DNA from: Ruminococcus sp. UBA5129
Lineage (GTDB): Bacteria; Bacillota; Clostridia; Oscillospirales; Ruminococcaceae
Length of the DNA stretch: 5,093 nt
NCBI GenBank assembly: GCA_002414125.1
Contig: DHYN01000008.1
Coordinates: 25,402-30,494, forward strand
Direction: 5' to 3'
In this document: in pieces, positions 135 through 5,093 of the stretch
Position numbering within the stretch: the stretch's first letter is position 1
How the letters are laid out: each line of letters starts with the position of its first letter
Notes under the pieces: generated by a model
What the model was told of the DNA's origin: nothing
What the model saw: the letters and a program-made list of their open reading frames with translations, nothing else
Database searches by the model: none
Position numbers and translations under genes: made by a program

Positions 135-156
135 AAATGTACTAAGTTGTACATTT
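135..156. repeat. Inverted repeat between the divergent tRNA promoters
   Basis: AAATGTAC (135-142) and GTACATTT (149-156) form a perfect 8-base inverted repeat around a 6-base centre. It ends 22 bases before the -35 box of the tRNA-Lys promoter. It could be a protein-binding dyad. On the plus strand it could also form a weak AT-rich hairpin followed by a short T run. The rest of 69-178 shows no gene or other clear signal. Confidence 0.5.
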
Positions 157-178
157 TTGTAAAAATTAGCTTTTTGAC

Positions 179-207
179 TTGACATTTGATGCGCGTTTTG
201 ATATAAT
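179..207 (+). promoter_or_regulatory. Consensus sigma-A promoter of tRNA-Lys
   Basis: TTGACA (179-184), a 17-base spacer and TATAAT (202-207) match the housekeeping promoter exactly. The expected start site is near 214, so the precursor leader would be only about five bases long. This is the only evident promoter for the tRNA-Lys gene, which is then closed by the terminator at 301-344, making a single-gene transcription unit. Confidence 0.93.
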
Positions 208-218
208 AGATGTGTTGT

Positions 219-294
219 GAGACATTAGCTCAGTCGGTAGAGCATACGCCTTTTAAGCGTAGGGTCGAGGGTTCAAATCCCTCATGTCTCACCA
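219..294 (+). tRNA. tRNA-Lys (anticodon UUU), complete
   Basis: All four arms pair perfectly. The acceptor is GAGACAT (219-225) with ATGTCTC (284-290). The D stem is GCTC/GAGC around AGTCGGTA. The anticodon stem is TACGC/GCGTA (245-249 and 257-261) with loop CTTTTAA, placing the anticodon TTT at 252-254. The variable loop is five bases. The T stem is GAGGG/CCCTC around TTCAAAT. A discriminator A at 291 and an encoded CCA at 292-294 complete a 76-base tRNA. UUU reads the lysine codons AAA and AAG. Confidence 0.97.
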
Positions 295-300
295 TGGATC

Positions 301-344
301 AAAAGCTTGTATTTTGTGAAAATCACTAAATACAAGCTTTTTTC
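301..344 (+). terminator. Rho-independent terminator of tRNA-Lys (possibly bidirectional)
   Basis: A perfect 14-bp stem (301-314 with 328-341) encloses a region that can add four more pairs, GTGA/TCAC, around an AAA loop after one T-T mismatch. The plus strand continues in T through 343, giving a good U tract. The minus-strand version ends in only four Ts, but it may also stop transcripts leaving the activase gene, which converges from the right; no other terminator was found for that operon. Confidence 0.9.
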
Positions 345-457
345 TTTGTTTTCAAGCAGTTGTCCTGTGGCTCAAAATATGCATAAAACGTTCGGATTTC
401 CAAATAGATCACACGAATCAATATGTTCTGAACATTGCTGCCTCCATTGAGTCGGAC
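345..457. other. Convergent intergenic region with two short palindromes
   Basis: No reading frame or RNA gene was recognised between the tRNA-Lys terminator and the end of the activase gene. Two perfect 13-base odd palindromes occur: ATGTTC-T-GAACAT at 423-435 and TGAGTC-G-GACTCA at 448-460. The second includes the activase stop codon. Neither has an adjacent T run, so they do not look like terminators. Confidence 0.5.
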
Positions 458-1417
458 TCACGCAATAGAAGGAGAAATATTACCGCGTTCACAGCGGTTG
501 CCCCATGAATCGATCAGTGTATCACCTTGGTAGACGCAGATTATCTCACAGTTATTGGAGCATCTTCCGCAAGATGCTTCTCTGATACGGAATTCCATGT
601 TCTCAATAGCAAAATCAAAATCCTTACGGATACTGCTGTTTTTAGCAAGAATAGCAGCGCCGATCGCTCCCATGAGATGACCGTTCGGATCAACCGTCAC
701 CTTGCAGCCCAGCGACTTTTCAAATGCCGCCACGACTCCGCGGTTCTTGCTCACGCCGCCCTGAAAGACTACAGGAGAAACGATGCGCTTGCCCTTGCCG
801 ACGTTGTTTAGATAATTCGCCACAACTGCGTTGCATACTCCTGCGATAATATCTTCTTTCAAGTACCCCATCTGAATCTTATGAACAAGGTCGGATTCTG
901 CGAAAACCGTACATCTTGCGGCGATAGACGCAGGATGCTCAGATTTTAGTGCAATATCGCCTATATCCTCAATTTCTATTCCCAAGCGTTTTGCCTGACT
1001 GGACAGAAATGCGCCCGTTCCGGCTGCGCACAGCGTATTCATGGCATAATCTACTGCAATTCCGTTTTCTAAAAGAATGATCTTGGAATCCTGACCACCA
1101 ATTTCGAGGATGGTGCGCACATCGGGATAAAACGCAGTTGTCCCCACTGCATGAGCTGTGATCTCGTTCTTTACCATAGTGGCGCCGAGAATAGAGCCGA
1201 CAAGCTTACGGGCACTGCCTGTAGTACCTGTCCCCACGATCTTGTACTTTTCTTTATCAAACTGTTCTTCCAAAATTCGGACAAGCTTTTTTACGGCGTC
1301 GATAGGTGCGCCCTCTGTCCAGATATATGCACTGCTCAAAATGTGATTTTCATTATCAATAATAACTCCCTTTGTAGAGATCGACCCTACGTCGATCCCC
1401 ATATATGCGTGTTCCAT
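458..1417 (-). CDS. BadF/HgdC-type ATPase activase (2-hydroxyacyl-CoA dehydratase activator family)
   Basis: This 319-residue protein belongs to the ASKHA (sugar kinase/Hsp70/actin) fold family BcrA/BadF, whose best-known member HgdC couples ATP hydrolysis to injecting one low-potential electron into a partner iron-sulfur protein. Visible motifs are the phosphate loop GIDVGSISTK (7-16), EIGGQDSK (105-112), and an FQGGVSKN nucleotide motif (218-225). Cys130 (CAAGTGAF) and Cys169 (ARCTVFAES) match the two cysteines that in HgdC dimers bridge one [4Fe-4S] cluster. Beyond the usual ~260-residue core is a tail with C-x2-C-x3-C (283, 286, 290), Cys294 and GNRCERG (Cys309), typical of the large fused activase-related proteins. 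The ATG overlaps the previous stop by one base (TAATG) behind AAGAAGG. The electron acceptor is inferred to be the two upstream proteins; the true substrate is unknown. Confidence 0.92.
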   Translation of the reverse strand: MEHAYMGIDVGSISTKGVIIDNENHILSSAYIWTEGAPIDAVKKLVRILEEQFDKEKYKIVGTGTTGSARKLVGSILGATMVKNEITAHAVGTTAFYPDVRTILEIGGQDSKIILLENGIAVDYAMNTLCAAGTGAFLSSQAKRLGIEIEDIGDIALKSEHPASIAARCTVFAESDLVHKIQMGYLKEDIIAGVCNAVVANYLNNVGKGKRIVSPVVFQGGVSKNRGVVAAFEKSLGCKVTVDPNGHLMGAIGAAILAKNSSIRKDFDFAIENMEFRIREASCGRCSNNCEIICVYQGDTLIDSWGNRCERGNISPSIA

Positions 1418-2502
1418 TACCGTACAACCTTCTTTCGCATAGAAATCATATCGTAAAATGCCTCAAGCCGTGTCATGAGTCCTACATCGCTTGTCTGTGC
1501 ATCATAGGTCAGATACAAGACAGGTATCTTATAATCGGCACTGATATTTTGCAGAACCGGCATGACATCGATCTCCGGTGTGCAGTTAGCGGATTTGATA
1601 TGGATAATACCATCGAATCCTCGTTCTGCATAATCCTTCGCACTCCGGATATTAGCGGTGGAAGTCGGACCCATCTGATAGGTGCAGAACTCCTTGACGC
1701 TTACATTAAGGTTTTTCTCTCCGGGATAGTGGAGAAACATATTGGAAACATTCATCCAACGGTGGATCTCTACGCCCATCTGCGCCAATTTCAGCTCCAC
1801 ATCAAAATTTGAAAACTGATCCATTGCGGTATAGAATTCTCCGACAATTCCGACACGCAGCGGTTGAGACGGCTTGGAGACCGGCAGCTCCGCAAATGTC
1901 TGTCTGATCTTTTTATGTGCCTGCTCAATTTCGTCCACGGTATTTGCAGCGTACATTTCCGCAATAAATGCCTCATACGCCTTTTTGAACGAACCTTTCC
2001 GTATTTCAAATCCGCAATTCTGATAATACTCGGATGTGACTTCGTCTATGTACTCTGCCATTTTCACACTCTCAAGCAAGACCTTCAGTACCTTCCTGAA
2101 TTTAAGATGTGGATTAAAATCCTTTGCTGCCTTGAACAGATCCTTCATTCTGCCTGTGTCATATCTTGAAAGATTGATAAATTGAAAATCATATCCAAGA
2201 TCCCGAAGGATCTGCTCCTGAAGCTCGCCATAATAGCCGAGCTTGCATATTCCGTACACCATAACCAGTGTATCAGCTCCGGCTTCAAGCGCCTCGATCA
2301 TGTTGCCAAGCAGCGTCTTAAATGGTGTGCATACAAAATCAGGACTGTATTTTGAGCCGATCTCCATTGTCTTGTGAGTCAGCCGAGGCGGTAGAATACA
2401 TTTAACATCCATTCCGTTTTCAAGCACATAGCGGATCGGTGCGTTGTAGTCGGCGTAACGTGGAAAAGCGACTTTCCTTACGATAGTTTTTTTCTTTGCC
2501 AT
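1417..2502 (-). CDS. HgdB-like protein of the CoA-dehydratase/activase-related family (COG3581-like)
   Basis: This 361-residue protein (GTG at 2505 would add one residue) resembles the last domain of giant clostridial 'acyl-CoA dehydratase activase-related' proteins and, distantly, the iron-sulfur subunits of 2-hydroxyacyl-CoA dehydratases. Numbered from the GTG, motifs are the CTPFKTLLGN block (Cys59), GICKLGYYGELQEQILRDLG (Cys87; usually GPCRFGYYGE-like), GEFYTAMDQFSNFDVELKL (222-240), SANCTPEI (Cys308) and TRLEAFYDM (345-353). Cys59, Cys87 and Cys308 are the best candidates for metal-cluster ligands, by analogy only. There is no signal peptide or membrane segment, so it is cytoplasmic. ATG 2502 is preferred because AGAGGG lies eight bases upstream, and its A is the last base of the previous TGA. 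It probably pairs with the product of 2502-3425 and receives electrons from the activase. The specific reaction is unknown. Confidence 0.85.
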   Translation of the reverse strand: MAKKKTIVRKVAFPRYADYNAPIRYVLENGMDVKCILPPRLTHKTMEIGSKYSPDFVCTPFKTLLGNMIEALEAGADTLVMVYGICKLGYYGELQEQILRDLGYDFQFINLSRYDTGRMKDLFKAAKDFNPHLKFRKVLKVLLESVKMAEYIDEVTSEYYQNCGFEIRKGSFKKAYEAFIAEMYAANTVDEIEQAHKKIRQTFAELPVSKPSQPLRVGIVGEFYTAMDQFSNFDVELKLAQMGVEIHRWMNVSNMFLHYPGEKNLNVSVKEFCTYQMGPTSTANIRSAKDYAERGFDGIIHIKSANCTPEIDVMPVLQNISADYKIPVLYLTYDAQTSDVGLMTRLEAFYDMISMRKKVVR

Positions 2503-3425
2503 CACAACATCCCTCTTTTAAAGCGTATAATATCGAGAAAGCTTTCCAGCCTTGTTTCCATACCTGCAGTACCGTTCTGACCATCCATAACGAGATTCAG
2601 CATCGGCAGTCCATCAATGCGCCGCAGCATCAACTCATTGACCATTGCGTCCGGTCCACAAGGAAATGCAGTAAGAAAAATGATGCCATCAATTTTATCC
2701 CGATACATGGTGATACCGCCTAAAATCTCACGACTGAGCTGCCATTTACAAGTAGGCGACAGCTCAATACTGCGTTTCATTGCAGCATTACTGTCAACAA
2801 TACCTGCTTCGATGGGCAACACATCATTCTTTTCCAAAAAATCCGTGATAGGTTTTCCGATATAAGCGTCACGAATCAGATAATCATGTCCTGCTATAAG
2901 GATTTTCAGTCCATCCTTATCAAGCAGATCTTTTTGTACCTTGAGTTTCTCTTTCCACATACGCTGATCTGCTATTTTTGCTGTCTTATAAGCGCTTAAT
3001 GTACTTTTGGCAGAGCAGCCAAGCGATTGTCCGAGCGACAAATAGGCTTTTAGTTCGCTTTCCCCATTGAGCACATCAATATTGCAGGTCAGAAATTTCT
3101 GACCGCTGCTTCTGAATACGTTTTTCGCCATGTCATACATCGCATGAAAGCGAGAGCACATATCCCTGTTTCTTCCAAAATTGCAGTACCTTGGAATAAA
3201 TATGTAATCACACTTTCCGATCAGTTCACTGACGTGTCCGAAATACAGCTTCAGCGACAAACACGCTTCGTCAATAGTCAGCGACATTCCTTGCTCGGCA
3301 ATGCGGTATGTTGTCGGCTCGCTTACTCGAATATCAGCTCCCAGTTTTGTAAAAAAAGTTTTCCAGAGCGTCTCACAGCGATAATAGAGCATTCCTCTGG
3401 GTATCCCGATTGTTGTTGATCTCAT
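2502..3425 (-). CDS. DUF2229-type acyl-CoA dehydratase activase-related protein
   Basis: This 307-residue protein matches the DUF2229 region of giant activase-related proteins. It opens with IGIPRGMLYYRCETLWKTFF (6-25), followed by TIDEACLSLKLYFGHV (50-65), DYIFIPRYCNFGRNRDMC (73-90), AFPCGPDAMVNE (253-264) and DGQNGTAG.ETRLESFLDII (281-300). It has nine cysteines; Cys55, 81, 90 and 256 lie in the recognisable blocks and are the likely cluster ligands, an inference. Its C-terminal block is similar to that of the next gene's product, so the two look like paralogous subunits. It is soluble, with no export signal. ATG 3425 has AAGGAG ten bases upstream. It is the first gene of a three-gene overlapping operon lying 194 bases after the Rrf2 gene. 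DUF2229 has no firmly assigned reaction. Confidence 0.88.
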   Translation of the reverse strand: MRSTTIGIPRGMLYYRCETLWKTFFTKLGADIRVSEPTTYRIAEQGMSLTIDEACLSLKLYFGHVSELIGKCDYIFIPRYCNFGRNRDMCSRFHAMYDMAKNVFRSSGQKFLTCNIDVLNGESELKAYLSLGQSLGCSAKSTLSAYKTAKIADQRMWKEKLKVQKDLLDKDGLKILIAGHDYLIRDAYIGKPITDFLEKNDVLPIEAGIVDSNAAMKRSIELSPTCKWQLSREILGGITMYRDKIDGIIFLTAFPCGPDAMVNELMLRRIDGLPMLNLVMDGQNGTAGMETRLESFLDIIRFKRGML

Positions 3426-3619
3426 GAAATATCAACTCCTTGCTATTAGACCTGTTCAATAACCTCCAAAATGCTGCCTGACTTGTCTTTTTGGCATCAT
3501 ACTTTGCCCGTTTTCCATATACGTATACAAGGGTACATTTTGCTCCGTTTCCGACAACTCGCTTCAAACGCTGTTAATAAGAATTGTCCTCCTGTGATAT
3601 GATCTATTATCAGACAAAC
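3426..3619 (-). other. Leader region between Rrf2 gene and operon, with an orphan Shine-Dalgarno
   Basis: This 194-base gap has no recognisable gene. A perfect AGGAGG (minus strand, 3593-3588) has no ATG, GTG or TTG at a usable distance; the first TTG (3567) is 20 bases away and opens a 64-codon frame running into the DUF2229 gene in another frame. I recognise no homology in it. A weak promoter-like pair TTGAAG (3635-3630) and TGATAA 18 bases later could serve the operon. No terminator closes the Rrf2 gene, so read-through from it is plausible. A 10-base palindrome TATACGTATA lies at 3518-3527. Confidence 0.4.
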
Positions 3620-4048
3620 CTATGTCTCTGCTTCAAGTCTTTTACGGATTCCCCTGATACAATCAGCCAGTGTTTTTTCTGCAAGAGCACGGGCAAAAGC
3701 ATCTTCCAGCTCCGCAAACATTCCGTTCAGAACCGGCTTAATATGATATCCGACAATACATTTGTCATTGGAATTCTTATGCAGATCAAAAAGGCAGGGA
3801 TGTTCTGTTTTGTTCACAGCTTGATAAATCTGAAGAAGCGTCAGATCCTCGGGTTTTGGCTTTAATACAAATCCGCTGACACCCCGACGGCTTTCAGTGA
3901 TACCATTTTTCTTGAGCAAGCCGATTATTTTACGAATATAGCTGGCATTTGTCCCGACACTTCCGGCAATCTTCTCGGATGTGAGCGGTTCCTCCGACTC
4001 GGAAATCAAGATCAGTGCATGGATCGCTGAAGAAAATTTATTGTCCAT
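3620..4048 (-). CDS. Rrf2-family transcriptional regulator (YwnA-like)
   Basis: This 142-residue cytoplasmic DNA-binding protein has the Rrf2 layout. An N-terminal helix (FSSAIHALILI) is followed by a winged helix-turn-helix (about 22-50, with SVGTNASYIRKIIGLLKKNG), then RRGVSGFVLKPKPEDLTLLQIYQAV, and a C-terminal dimerisation helix. The SVGTNASYIRKIIG block and the DKCIVGYHIKPVL segment resemble the Bacillus YwnA branch. Cysteines are at 85, 97 and 130; the three closely spaced cysteines that hold the cluster in IscR or NsrR are missing, so an iron-sulfur cluster of that type is not expected, though Cys85/Cys97 could act as a thiol sensor. ATG 4048 follows GAGGTG at eight bases. Its position directly upstream of the three-gene operon makes it the likely local regulator, perhaps autoregulated. 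Confidence 0.93.
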   Translation of the reverse strand: MDNKFSSAIHALILISESEEPLTSEKIAGSVGTNASYIRKIIGLLKKNGITESRRGVSGFVLKPKPEDLTLLQIYQAVNKTEHPCLFDLHKNSNDKCIVGYHIKPVLNGMFAELEDAFARALAEKTLADCIRGIRKRLEAET

Positions 4049-4079
4049 CAGTTCTTCACCTCACAAGTTACGATATATT

Positions 4080-4259
4080 CTATCGAAGCATCTGTTTCTT
4101 CGCATTTAGAAAGCGGAACTCGATCGGAATTCCAAAAGCCCCATCTGATGCTTTCGGAAATTTCTCCAACCTTTGCTTATCCTCTGCAAGAATAGGTTTC
4201 CAATTGAATGTTCTCACACTTGTCCTTTTGCGAATCAAGTCTTTTACCAAAGCACCCAC
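4080..4259 (-). pseudogene. Truncated nitroreductase-family remnant (N-terminal 59 codons)
   Basis: From a GTG at 4259, seven bases after GGGAG, the frame encodes 59 residues starting VGALVKDLIRKRTSVRTF. RKRTSVRTF is the FMN phosphate-binding signature at the start of nitroreductase-fold flavoproteins, and AFGIPIEFRFLNAKK (41-55) matches the next conserved stretch of one subfamily. Family members usually exceed 160 residues, often 200-250, but here a TAG ends the frame after QMLR and the Rrf2 ATG follows 31 bases later. The dimerisation and rest of the flavin site are absent, so enzymatic activity is not expected. The promoter, operator-like dyad and ribosome-binding site upstream remain intact. 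The cause is probably an internal deletion. A functional short peptide cannot be excluded but is less likely. Confidence 0.72.
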
Positions 4260-4279
4260 GACAATGCTCCCTTTGATTA

Positions 4280-4302
4280 GTATAAGTATCTGATACAAGT
4301 AC
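4280..4302. promoter_or_regulatory. Operator-like dyad over the transcription start
   Basis: A 23-base imperfect palindrome has arms GTATAAGTATC and GATACAAGTAC around a central T. Its inner five bases are perfectly symmetric and eight of eleven positions match overall. It begins directly after the -10 box (4308-4303) and covers the expected start site, the usual place for a repressor. Nitroreductase genes are often controlled by HxlR- or MarR-type repressors that bind such dyads, but the binding protein here is unknown; Rrf2 itself is one candidate. Confidence 0.5.
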
Positions 4303-4331
4303 ATTATAAACGAAAAAGCCTCATTTGTCAA
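4303..4331 (-). promoter_or_regulatory. Consensus sigma-A promoter upstream of the nitroreductase remnant and Rrf2 gene
   Basis: On the minus strand TTGACA (4331-4326), a 17-base spacer and TATAAT (4308-4303) match the consensus exactly. It sits about 20 bases past the thiC terminator, so it starts a fresh transcript. That transcript would cross the nitroreductase remnant into the Rrf2 gene, and possibly the three-gene operon, since no terminator is seen between them. Confidence 0.88.
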
Positions 4332-4350
4332 TAGGCAAAGAGAAGTTTGC

Positions 4351-4379
4351 AAAAAAAATAACCGGGTGACCCCGGTTAT
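4351..4379 (-). terminator. Rho-independent terminator after thiC
   Basis: On the minus strand ATAACCGGG (4379-4371) pairs perfectly with CCCGGTTAT (4366-4358) around a four-base loop, and transcription runs on into a run of eight Ts (4358-4351). This GC-rich stem plus U tract is a strong intrinsic terminator, separating the thiC transcript from the promoter at 4303-4331. Confidence 0.93.
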
Positions 4380-4484
4380 CAATCCTTAAGACGATGATAT
4401 CTTTCTTTGGTTGTCGAGCAGTCTTGGGTTTTATTTATCTCTCTGCGCCGCCGGCAATAACTCGCTGTTTCATTCTATCACCCA
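4380..4484 (-). other. thiC 3' untranslated region with a 16-codon micro-ORF
   Basis: Between the thiC stop and its terminator there is no full gene. An ATG at 4485 overlaps the thiC stop (TAATG) and opens a 16-codon frame, [16 protein letters not shown], ending with TAA at 4437-4435. I recognise no family in it. It could be chance or the stump of a once-coupled downstream gene. Confidence 0.35.
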
Positions 4485-5093
4485 TTATAAAATATCAATA
4501 TATTCGCCGTTAAGCGCTTTGTTCATGCTTCTGACAGCACAGAACTTACCGCACATGGAGCAGCTATCCTCATGTTCCGGCGCACGGCTGTCACGAATCG
4601 CCTTTGCGGTTTCGGGATCAATGGAGCATTCCCACTGCTTTTCCCAATCAAAGGTCCTTCTTGCATCCGCCATGGCATCGTCAATATCCCTTGCGTGCGG
4701 CACCTTCTTTGCAATATCTGCCGAATGAGCCGCTATTTTTGAAGCGATGATACCTTGCTTGACATCCTCAACATTTGGAAGGGCGAGGTGTTCTGCGGGC
4801 GTGACATAGCATAGGAATGCCGCACCTGATGCAGCGGCGATAGCGCCTCCGATAGCAGAGGTAATGTGATCATATCCCGGAGCAATATCGGTAACGATTG
4901 GACCGAGCACATAGAAAGGCGCACCCATACAAATGGTTTGCTGCAGCTTCATATTCGCCTCGATCTGATCTATAGGCATATGTCCGGGACCTTCAACCAT
5001 CACCTGAACATCCTTCTCCCAAGCTCGCTTGGTCAGCTCACCAAGACGAACAAGCTCTTCGATCTGACAGACGTCGCTGCCGTCGGCAAGAGT
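4485..5093 (-). CDS. thiC: Phosphomethylpyrimidine synthase ThiC, C-terminal part (runs off the right edge)
   Basis: The 202 visible residues are the C-terminal half of ThiC, the non-canonical radical SAM enzyme that rearranges 5-aminoimidazole ribotide into HMP-phosphate for thiamine synthesis. The frame is open to the window edge, so an internal ATG/GTG near 5003 is not the start. Diagnostic stretches are [20 protein letters not shown] (17-36 of the fragment), [37 protein letters not shown], and the cluster-binding [11 protein letters not shown] (Cys178, 181, 185). The cysteine spacing is C-x2-C-x3-C, one shorter than the E. coli-type C-x2-C-x4-C; I believe this is a variant of short-form ThiC rather than damage, because the frame is intact around it. 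The start, and any TPP riboswitch, lie beyond the window. A strong terminator follows. Confidence 0.97.

Follow-up and report, generated by a model that had tools for sequence, protein, structure and literature searches.

An unfused three-gene relative of plasmalogen synthase in Clostridia, predicted to be an ATP-driven iron-sulfur reductase

A 5,093-nucleotide stretch of the draft genome of Ruminococcus sp. UBA5129 (GCA_002414125.1, contig DHYN01000008.1, positions 25,402 to 30,494; hereafter the window) carries an operon of three overlapping genes, which we call B, C and A in their order within it (Table 1). We assign the general class of their products with high confidence: B-C-A belongs to the BCR/HAD superfamily as an ATP-driven [4Fe-4S] reductase, and its layout is closest to that of plasmalogen synthase (PlsA/PlsR, or PlsA/R). 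Sequence comparison predicts a separate heteromeric enzyme with a homologue of each PlsA/PlsR part. For the substrate we tentatively propose the carbonyl of an ester or of another acyl group, which may belong to a lipid, although this falls somewhat short of probable. Because PlsR nearly always coexists with B-C-A in close genomes, the substrate is probably another lipid position, head group or acyl compound than that of PlsA/R.

According to the available parts of the papers cited in this paragraph, plsA and plsR are two genes in Clostridium perfringens, and their products are reductases that turn the sn-1 acyl ester into an alk-1'-enyl ether (PMC9702350), and a 4,199-bp fragment with the plsA-plsR operon gave plasmalogen in E. 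coli (PMC12838417). In Enterococcus and other species both Pls regions lie in a single fused open reading frame (ORF), with domains labelled Act1, Act2, Red1 and Red2 (PMC12838417). The proposed chemistry leads from ester to vinyl ether by two sequential reductions, protonation and dehydration (PMC8788747). Ger is a PlsA-like reductase with two activation domains that turns ester into ether; among homologues of the PlsA type, some are reported to have one activation domain and some two, and the role of extra PlsA homologues without an activation domain was called unclear in 2026 (PMC13274423). Species are called plasmalogen-positive on the basis of Pfam domains related to PlsA/R (PMC10076029). 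An earlier note on this DNA had called the operon an unassigned, split version of a giant activase fusion; by these papers the fusion itself is assigned, being PlsA/R or Ger. The available parts of two further papers, on mlp and on CO, made no link to DUF2229, and a search for reports of plasmalogens from named gut genera listed nothing of use. A search of the open-licence literature, with other literature outside its scope, found no paper on the three-gene B-C-A family.

Results

Homology of the reductase subunits

Profile comparison paired each reductase subunit with one part of the plasmalogen synthase. B matched the DUF2229 domain of PlsA end to end (probability 98.8%, 300 columns) and C matched PlsR end to end (97.5%, 326 columns), against 19% and 65% when B or C was set against the wrong Pls part. 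Eight HGD-D proteins from other genomes (what remained of ten picked in 18 loci once duplicates were taken out) aligned over no more than the last 61 and 67 columns. The HGD-D family (PF06050) did not extend over the full reductase length either: it matched only residues 282-354 of C (4.9e-8, beside a weak DUF2229 match of 2e-7) and, below the cut-off, residues 243-300 of B. The profile searches that the earlier note had called for thus gave BcrAD_BadFG for A, DUF2229 for B and the C-terminal part of HGD-D for C, and structural modelling suggests a HAD/BCR fold for both reductase subunits. The activase, DUF2229 and PlsR-type parts are encoded together in the window, where A is a separate 319-aa chain and not fused to DUF2229 as in PlsA, and has one activation domain, not two as in Ger. 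Relatives of A with solved structures are 1hux, 4eht, 9gai_D and 7yyl_E.

Recurrence of the three-gene unit

The three-gene pattern goes beyond chance, as both the homologues of B and the gene order show. B matched 2,819 of 3,423 candidate proteins at E<=0.001. The order B-C-A was found in 74 of 80 near loci, which were the best 80 of 409 relatives drawn from 426 stretches in a scan of named genomes; one of these loci (L047) has another gene call between C and A. Of the six exceptions, five stop at a contig end or close to it; in the sixth (L071), B and C are present but A was not found. Among distant loci, 20 of 69 other matches from a B search of genomes of the class, 19 have B-C-A and one (L140) has B-C. 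L071 and L140 show no adjoining activase and may depend on one encoded elsewhere. At L121:6809-9894 (minus strand), in a genome of the same order, activase, DUF2229 and PlsR-like genes follow the order of the fused protein without being fused.

For residue counts, the near sets exclude gene calls with <40% identity or >=480 aa. The wide sets comprise 17 B, 19 C and 19 A sequences from 20 loci, since the simple gene caller overlooked some genes or gave them a wrong start; split or cut calls count as gaps, and the missed genes were rechecked by tblastn.

The activase tail and the activase tree

A aligned with Act2 over 314 profile columns, including the C-terminal tail, and with Act1 over 268 columns that do not include it. 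The tail motif is present in all eight PlsA-like proteins, and its four cysteines occur in 73/75 near A sequences (two gaps), 19/19 wide A and 8/8 Act2 domains, against 0/8 Act1 domains. It is absent from all 11 distinct complete activases encoded beside HGD-D genes; of the 14 ORFs collected for that comparison, one was a cut copy of another and two were cut off by the edge of the locus ahead of the tail. Alignments to the solved activases end ahead of the tail. As a Pls feature the tail is a pattern found in the present analysis, not a published criterion. Its cysteines, C283/C286/C290/C309, may form an extra cluster site, and C130 and C169 are predicted ligands of the bridging cluster.

In a tree of 59 activase cores with the tail trimmed, all 33 B-C-A type activases formed one group (97/90), and Act1 (8), Act2 (8) and HGD-linked activases (10) each formed a separate group. 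The order among the groups did not come out, and the tree does not decide whether the B-C-A activases are kin to Act2 or to the HGD-linked group (82/41, long branches flagged).

Cluster cysteines

Three cysteines are universal in B and three in C, the same number as in each reductase part of PlsA/R; C55, C90 and C256 of B and C59, C87 and C308 of C are the predicted [4Fe-4S] ligands. Widely conserved cysteines number no more than five in B. C of the near clade has up to six, with spacings (22-59-87 and 274-308) that match those of BzdN (36-73-100, within one residue, and 293-327). C22 is missing from the window's own C, and an equivalent of BzdN Cys263 was not seen. At the distant loci the extra cysteines are mostly missing: C22 of C occurs in 1/19, C164 and C274 in 0/19, and C72 and C226 of B in 4/17 and 1/17, respectively. 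Within the near clade, B C226 and C C22 co-vary between the subunits, which may mark an extra cluster or a contact at their interface.

The earlier note had supposed a double-cubane-type reductase of small molecules, which on this evidence we consider improbable. DCCP came first or tied first in the comparison of modelled folds for both B and C, and near-clade C, with its extra cysteines spaced as in BzdN, may be an exception. Against the idea stand the three universal cysteines per subunit (six in the BzdN double cubane), the scarcity of the extra ones at the distant loci, the absence of C22 from the window's C, the lack of a visible Cys263 equivalent, and the small number of widely conserved cysteines in B.

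A separate plsA-plsR-like pair in the same genome

On a different contig, the window genome (64.5% complete) has a gene for a protein of 975 aa that combines two PF01869 stretches with DUF2229; 18 bp downstream follows a gene for a 409-aa protein. By size, domains and layout the pair fits plsA-plsR, the C. perfringens PlsA/R sequences lying outside the comparison, and it has the order activase-activase-DUF2229-PlsR, which bears out the earlier note on the fusion (activases first, HgdB-like domains last). The note had further taken the operon for a split version of that fusion. Given the activase clade of its own and the separate plsA-plsR-like pair in the same genome, a sister family fits better: B-C-A looks like one that combines the Pls layout with a HAD/DCCP-like end. 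A second plsR-like gene lies at L149:4052-5287 (minus strand, contig C56); it encodes 411 aa by ORF call and is 32% identical to the genome's main plsR, and the ORFs listed for the 8.5 kb around it include none like plsA.

Of 35 other genomes of the genus, 34 have a DUF2229 match (E<=0.001), almost always in a frame of about 1000 aa, and none has a B match at E<=1e-20. The operon is therefore accessory in the window genome, and perhaps acquired. Contamination was rejected, as the contig fits the genome by its ThiH: of 23 genus mates searched, 14 have a protein 80-84% identical to it and one a protein 63% identical, while the other eight gave only a match of about 30% or none. The best ThiH match (86%) is to a genome labelled as the same order and not the same genus, so some exchange is possible. 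No homologues of B, C, A or the neighbouring Rrf2-family regulator were found in the six compared thi loci (five of genus mates, one of the same order).

Neighbouring genes and co-occurrence

The 968 neighbour genes of 101 pooled loci fell into clusters of which the three largest reach 13, 12 and 12 loci; representatives of two of the three read, by their sequences, as a response regulator and a sensor kinase. Among adjacent same-strand neighbours within 200 bp, 39 of 69 were scanned; 46 Pfam families turned up, each in three members at most. The neighbourhood comparison, which the earlier note had also proposed, thus confirmed a recurrent gene order and found no conserved neighbour family.

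Several clades have genes of their own after the activase. At L097, L106 and L110 it is a gene of 619-673 aa, with a PLD domain in L106 and a PLD match in three of the 39 scanned proteins, a weak hint at phospholipid metabolism. L075, L080, L086 and L094 have a gene related in size to the 100-aa ORF of the window, the L075 copy being a nitroreductase by Pfam. L102, L105, L112, L114 and L117 have a gene of 268-305 aa, and the L102 copy matches the catalytic domain of 2-oxoacid dehydrogenase acyltransferases (2-oxoacid_dh). One distant locus has a 67-aa TOBE-domain protein (L137:1713-1916, minus strand). The nitroreductase-type (four loci), acyltransferase-like (five) and PLD (three) genes were set aside as functional clues, being clade-local.

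In close genomes (50 of 80 loci) PlsR is found at E<=1e-20 in 47/50. Among 147 genomes of the class, including the window's own, 54 have B at the same threshold: 26 have B and PlsR, 28 B only, 64 PlsR only and 29 neither. Thus B-C-A stands beside PlsR in close genomes and without it in many distant ones.

Locus and surrounding features

B and C overlap by 4 nt and C and A by 1 nt. The Pfam scan of the window covered six ORFs (B, C, A, the Rrf2-family gene, the ThiC part and the 100-aa ORF), and no dehydratase, CoA-transferase or electron-transfer flavoprotein was found among them. In this the earlier note was right, as it was on the three overlapping genes of DUF2229, COG3581-like and HgdC-type activase character, confirmed by ORF calls and Pfam, and on the single activase domain and last-placed activase gene.

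Table 1. Features of the window
Feature	Position	Strand	Remarks
Gene B, DUF2229-type reductase subunit	2502-3425	-	307 aa, first gene of the operon; Pfam DUF2229 1.5e-40
Gene C, PlsR/COG3581-like reductase subunit	1417-2505	-	362 aa, GTG start
Gene A, ATP-dependent activase	458-1417	-	319 aa, last gene of the operon; BcrAD_BadFG PF01869 1.1e-50; TIGR00241 3.1e-58
Tail of A, predicted extra iron-sulfur cluster site, common to PlsA Act2	491-571	-	residues 283-309, CxxCxxxC-x18-C
Rrf2-family regulator gene, upstream of the operon	3620-4048	-	PF02082 1.3e-27; same strand as the operon
100-aa ORF	4080-4382	-	no Pfam family
ThiC, C-terminal part	4485-5093		from the Pfam scan of window ORFs
tRNA-Lys gene	219-294		sole Rfam match reaching threshold in the window

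Upstream on the contig lies a thiamine gene cluster, its gene names read from the sequences. Control of the operon by the Rrf2-family regulator was dropped as an idea, since the genes listed around B-C-A in the near set of 80 loci (as many as five upstream and eight downstream of B) include no Rrf2 homologue. The end of the 100-aa ORF resembles the start of a nitroreductase, of which it is perhaps a remnant. Scans for sigma-70 promoters and terminators over positions 150-4150 were overall at or below chance level. A perfect TTGACA-17-TATAAT promoter with a TG extension lies directly ahead of the tRNA-Lys gene (179-207, plus strand), and an AT-rich inverted repeat with a T run after it (301-342), located between that gene and the end of the activase gene, is terminator-like though absent from the list of the terminator scan. 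The viral contigs searched held no relative.

Discussion

The data favor a self-contained unit of activase and heteromeric iron-sulfur reductase. This part of the earlier note stood, by the predicted fold, the cluster-type cysteines and the recurrence of the three genes; its split fusion, its double cubane (near-clade C perhaps excepted) and, for the giant fusion, its label 'unassigned' found no support. In the mechanism we propose, A would be a homodimer with a bridging [4Fe-4S] cluster on C130/C169, would take an electron from a ferredoxin-type donor and lower its potential with ATP. The electron would then pass, probably via the tail cluster, to the [4Fe-4S] clusters held by the three cysteines of B and the three of C, where single-electron steps would yield a ketyl-type radical on the carbonyl.

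Several observations weigh against the explanation proposed here. B and C are also alike (98.5% over 297 columns), as expected of old paralogues, so part of the pairing of B with DUF2229 and C with PlsR reflects common origin; the same comparison for the fused proteins, DUF2229 against PlsR, gave 31 columns and was spoiled by overlapping slices. The C-terminal TR-x-E residues are kept in B (T291/E294 in the window; T/E in 80/81 near sequences) and C (T345/E348; 77/79), the rest being gaps, whereas the same positions hold I/R in 8/8 PlsA and N/(K or R) in 8/8 PlsR. T and E are partly seen at the C-terminal end of HadB, DCCP and HGD-D proteins, within the aligned stretches, and part of the site is thus more HAD/DCCP-like. 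In the activase-core tree A does not group with Act2. Nor is any lipid gene a regular neighbour: the PLD-domain gene follows A in three related loci only. Since PlsR is missing from 28 of the 54 B-bearing class genomes (odds ratio 0.42, p 0.015, relatedness not removed), a function unrelated to Pls is possible. Finally, of 59 genomes, 10 of the 23 that carry B and 2 of the 36 that do not have PF06050 proteins at E<=1e-20 (p 0.0007, relatedness not removed), so the classical dehydratase is commoner in B-bearing genomes.

This last association bears on an alternative that we regard as unlikely, namely that B-C-A is a HAD/BCR-type 2-hydroxyacyl-CoA dehydratase or acyl-CoA reductase acting on a soluble CoA thioester, with B and C as shortened forms. 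The end-to-end profile matches are to PlsA/PlsR and not to HGD-D proteins, and the tail is found in none of the 11 complete activases beside HGD-D genes. No dehydratase or CoA-transferase was found in the window, neither is among the Pfam families listed (25 of 46) for the scanned adjacent neighbours at other loci, and the incomplete genome itself has no PF06050 match above the cut-off; the link to an ordinary dehydratase that the earlier note had named as refuting its view was not found at the locus. ATP-driven low-potential modules can also act as activators, and as a stand-alone unit with no conserved substrate-pathway neighbour B-C-A might serve to maintain some other metalloenzyme, or a corrinoid protein, by activating it reductively. 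That B-C-A has B and C subunits of its own with active-site-type cysteines, unlike simple activases, and that no conserved client gene was found make this an improbable explanation, if slightly less so than the double cubane. Least probable to us is a redundant plasmalogen synthase with the same product as PlsA/R. The subunits are homologous and the 28 B-bearing class genomes without a PlsR match might use B-C-A instead, but PlsR is already present in 47 of the 50 close genomes, and the C-terminal residues differ.

B-C-A can be set beside known systems. PlsA/PlsR shares with B-C-A the activase, DUF2229 and PlsR-type parts, the pairing of B with DUF2229 and C with PlsR, the four-cysteine activase tail and three cluster cysteines per reductase part. 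B-C-A differs in its three chains, its one activase domain on a chain of its own with the gene last, its TR-x-E residues and its separate activase clade. Ger belongs to the same superfamily, and its conversion of ester to ether serves as our working model; it is set apart by its description, in the part available, as PlsA-like with two activation domains. HadBC with HadI (2-hydroxyisocaproyl-CoA dehydratase) and HgdAB with HgdC align by profile over the C-terminal 61-67 columns only, and differ further in the CoA-transferase, not found near B-C-A, and in the tail, absent from the HGD-D-linked activases. DCCP and BzdNO (class I benzoyl-CoA reductase) are alike in fold and in activase-driven electron supply, but BzdN has six cluster cysteines.

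In its fullest form our proposal is rather doubtful. B-C-A would be a second, previously undescribed ester or acyl-carbonyl reductase of Clostridia, an unfused, single-activase form of the plasmalogen-synthase branch; its product, an ether-type lipid or another reduced acyl compound, would be one that PlsA/R does not make, and in the window's clade the enzyme would have an extra iron-sulfur site between B and C (B C226/C C22).

B-C-A is widespread (a B match in 54 of 147 class genomes) and has domains of the same kind as the Pls proteins (DUF2229 and BcrAD_BadFG), so it can be taken wrongly for plsA, plsR or a dehydratase. If it does reduce another ester or acyl group, it would be a new enzyme for anaerobic lipid chemistry and would offer a smaller, three-part system in which to study ATP-driven reductions of this kind.

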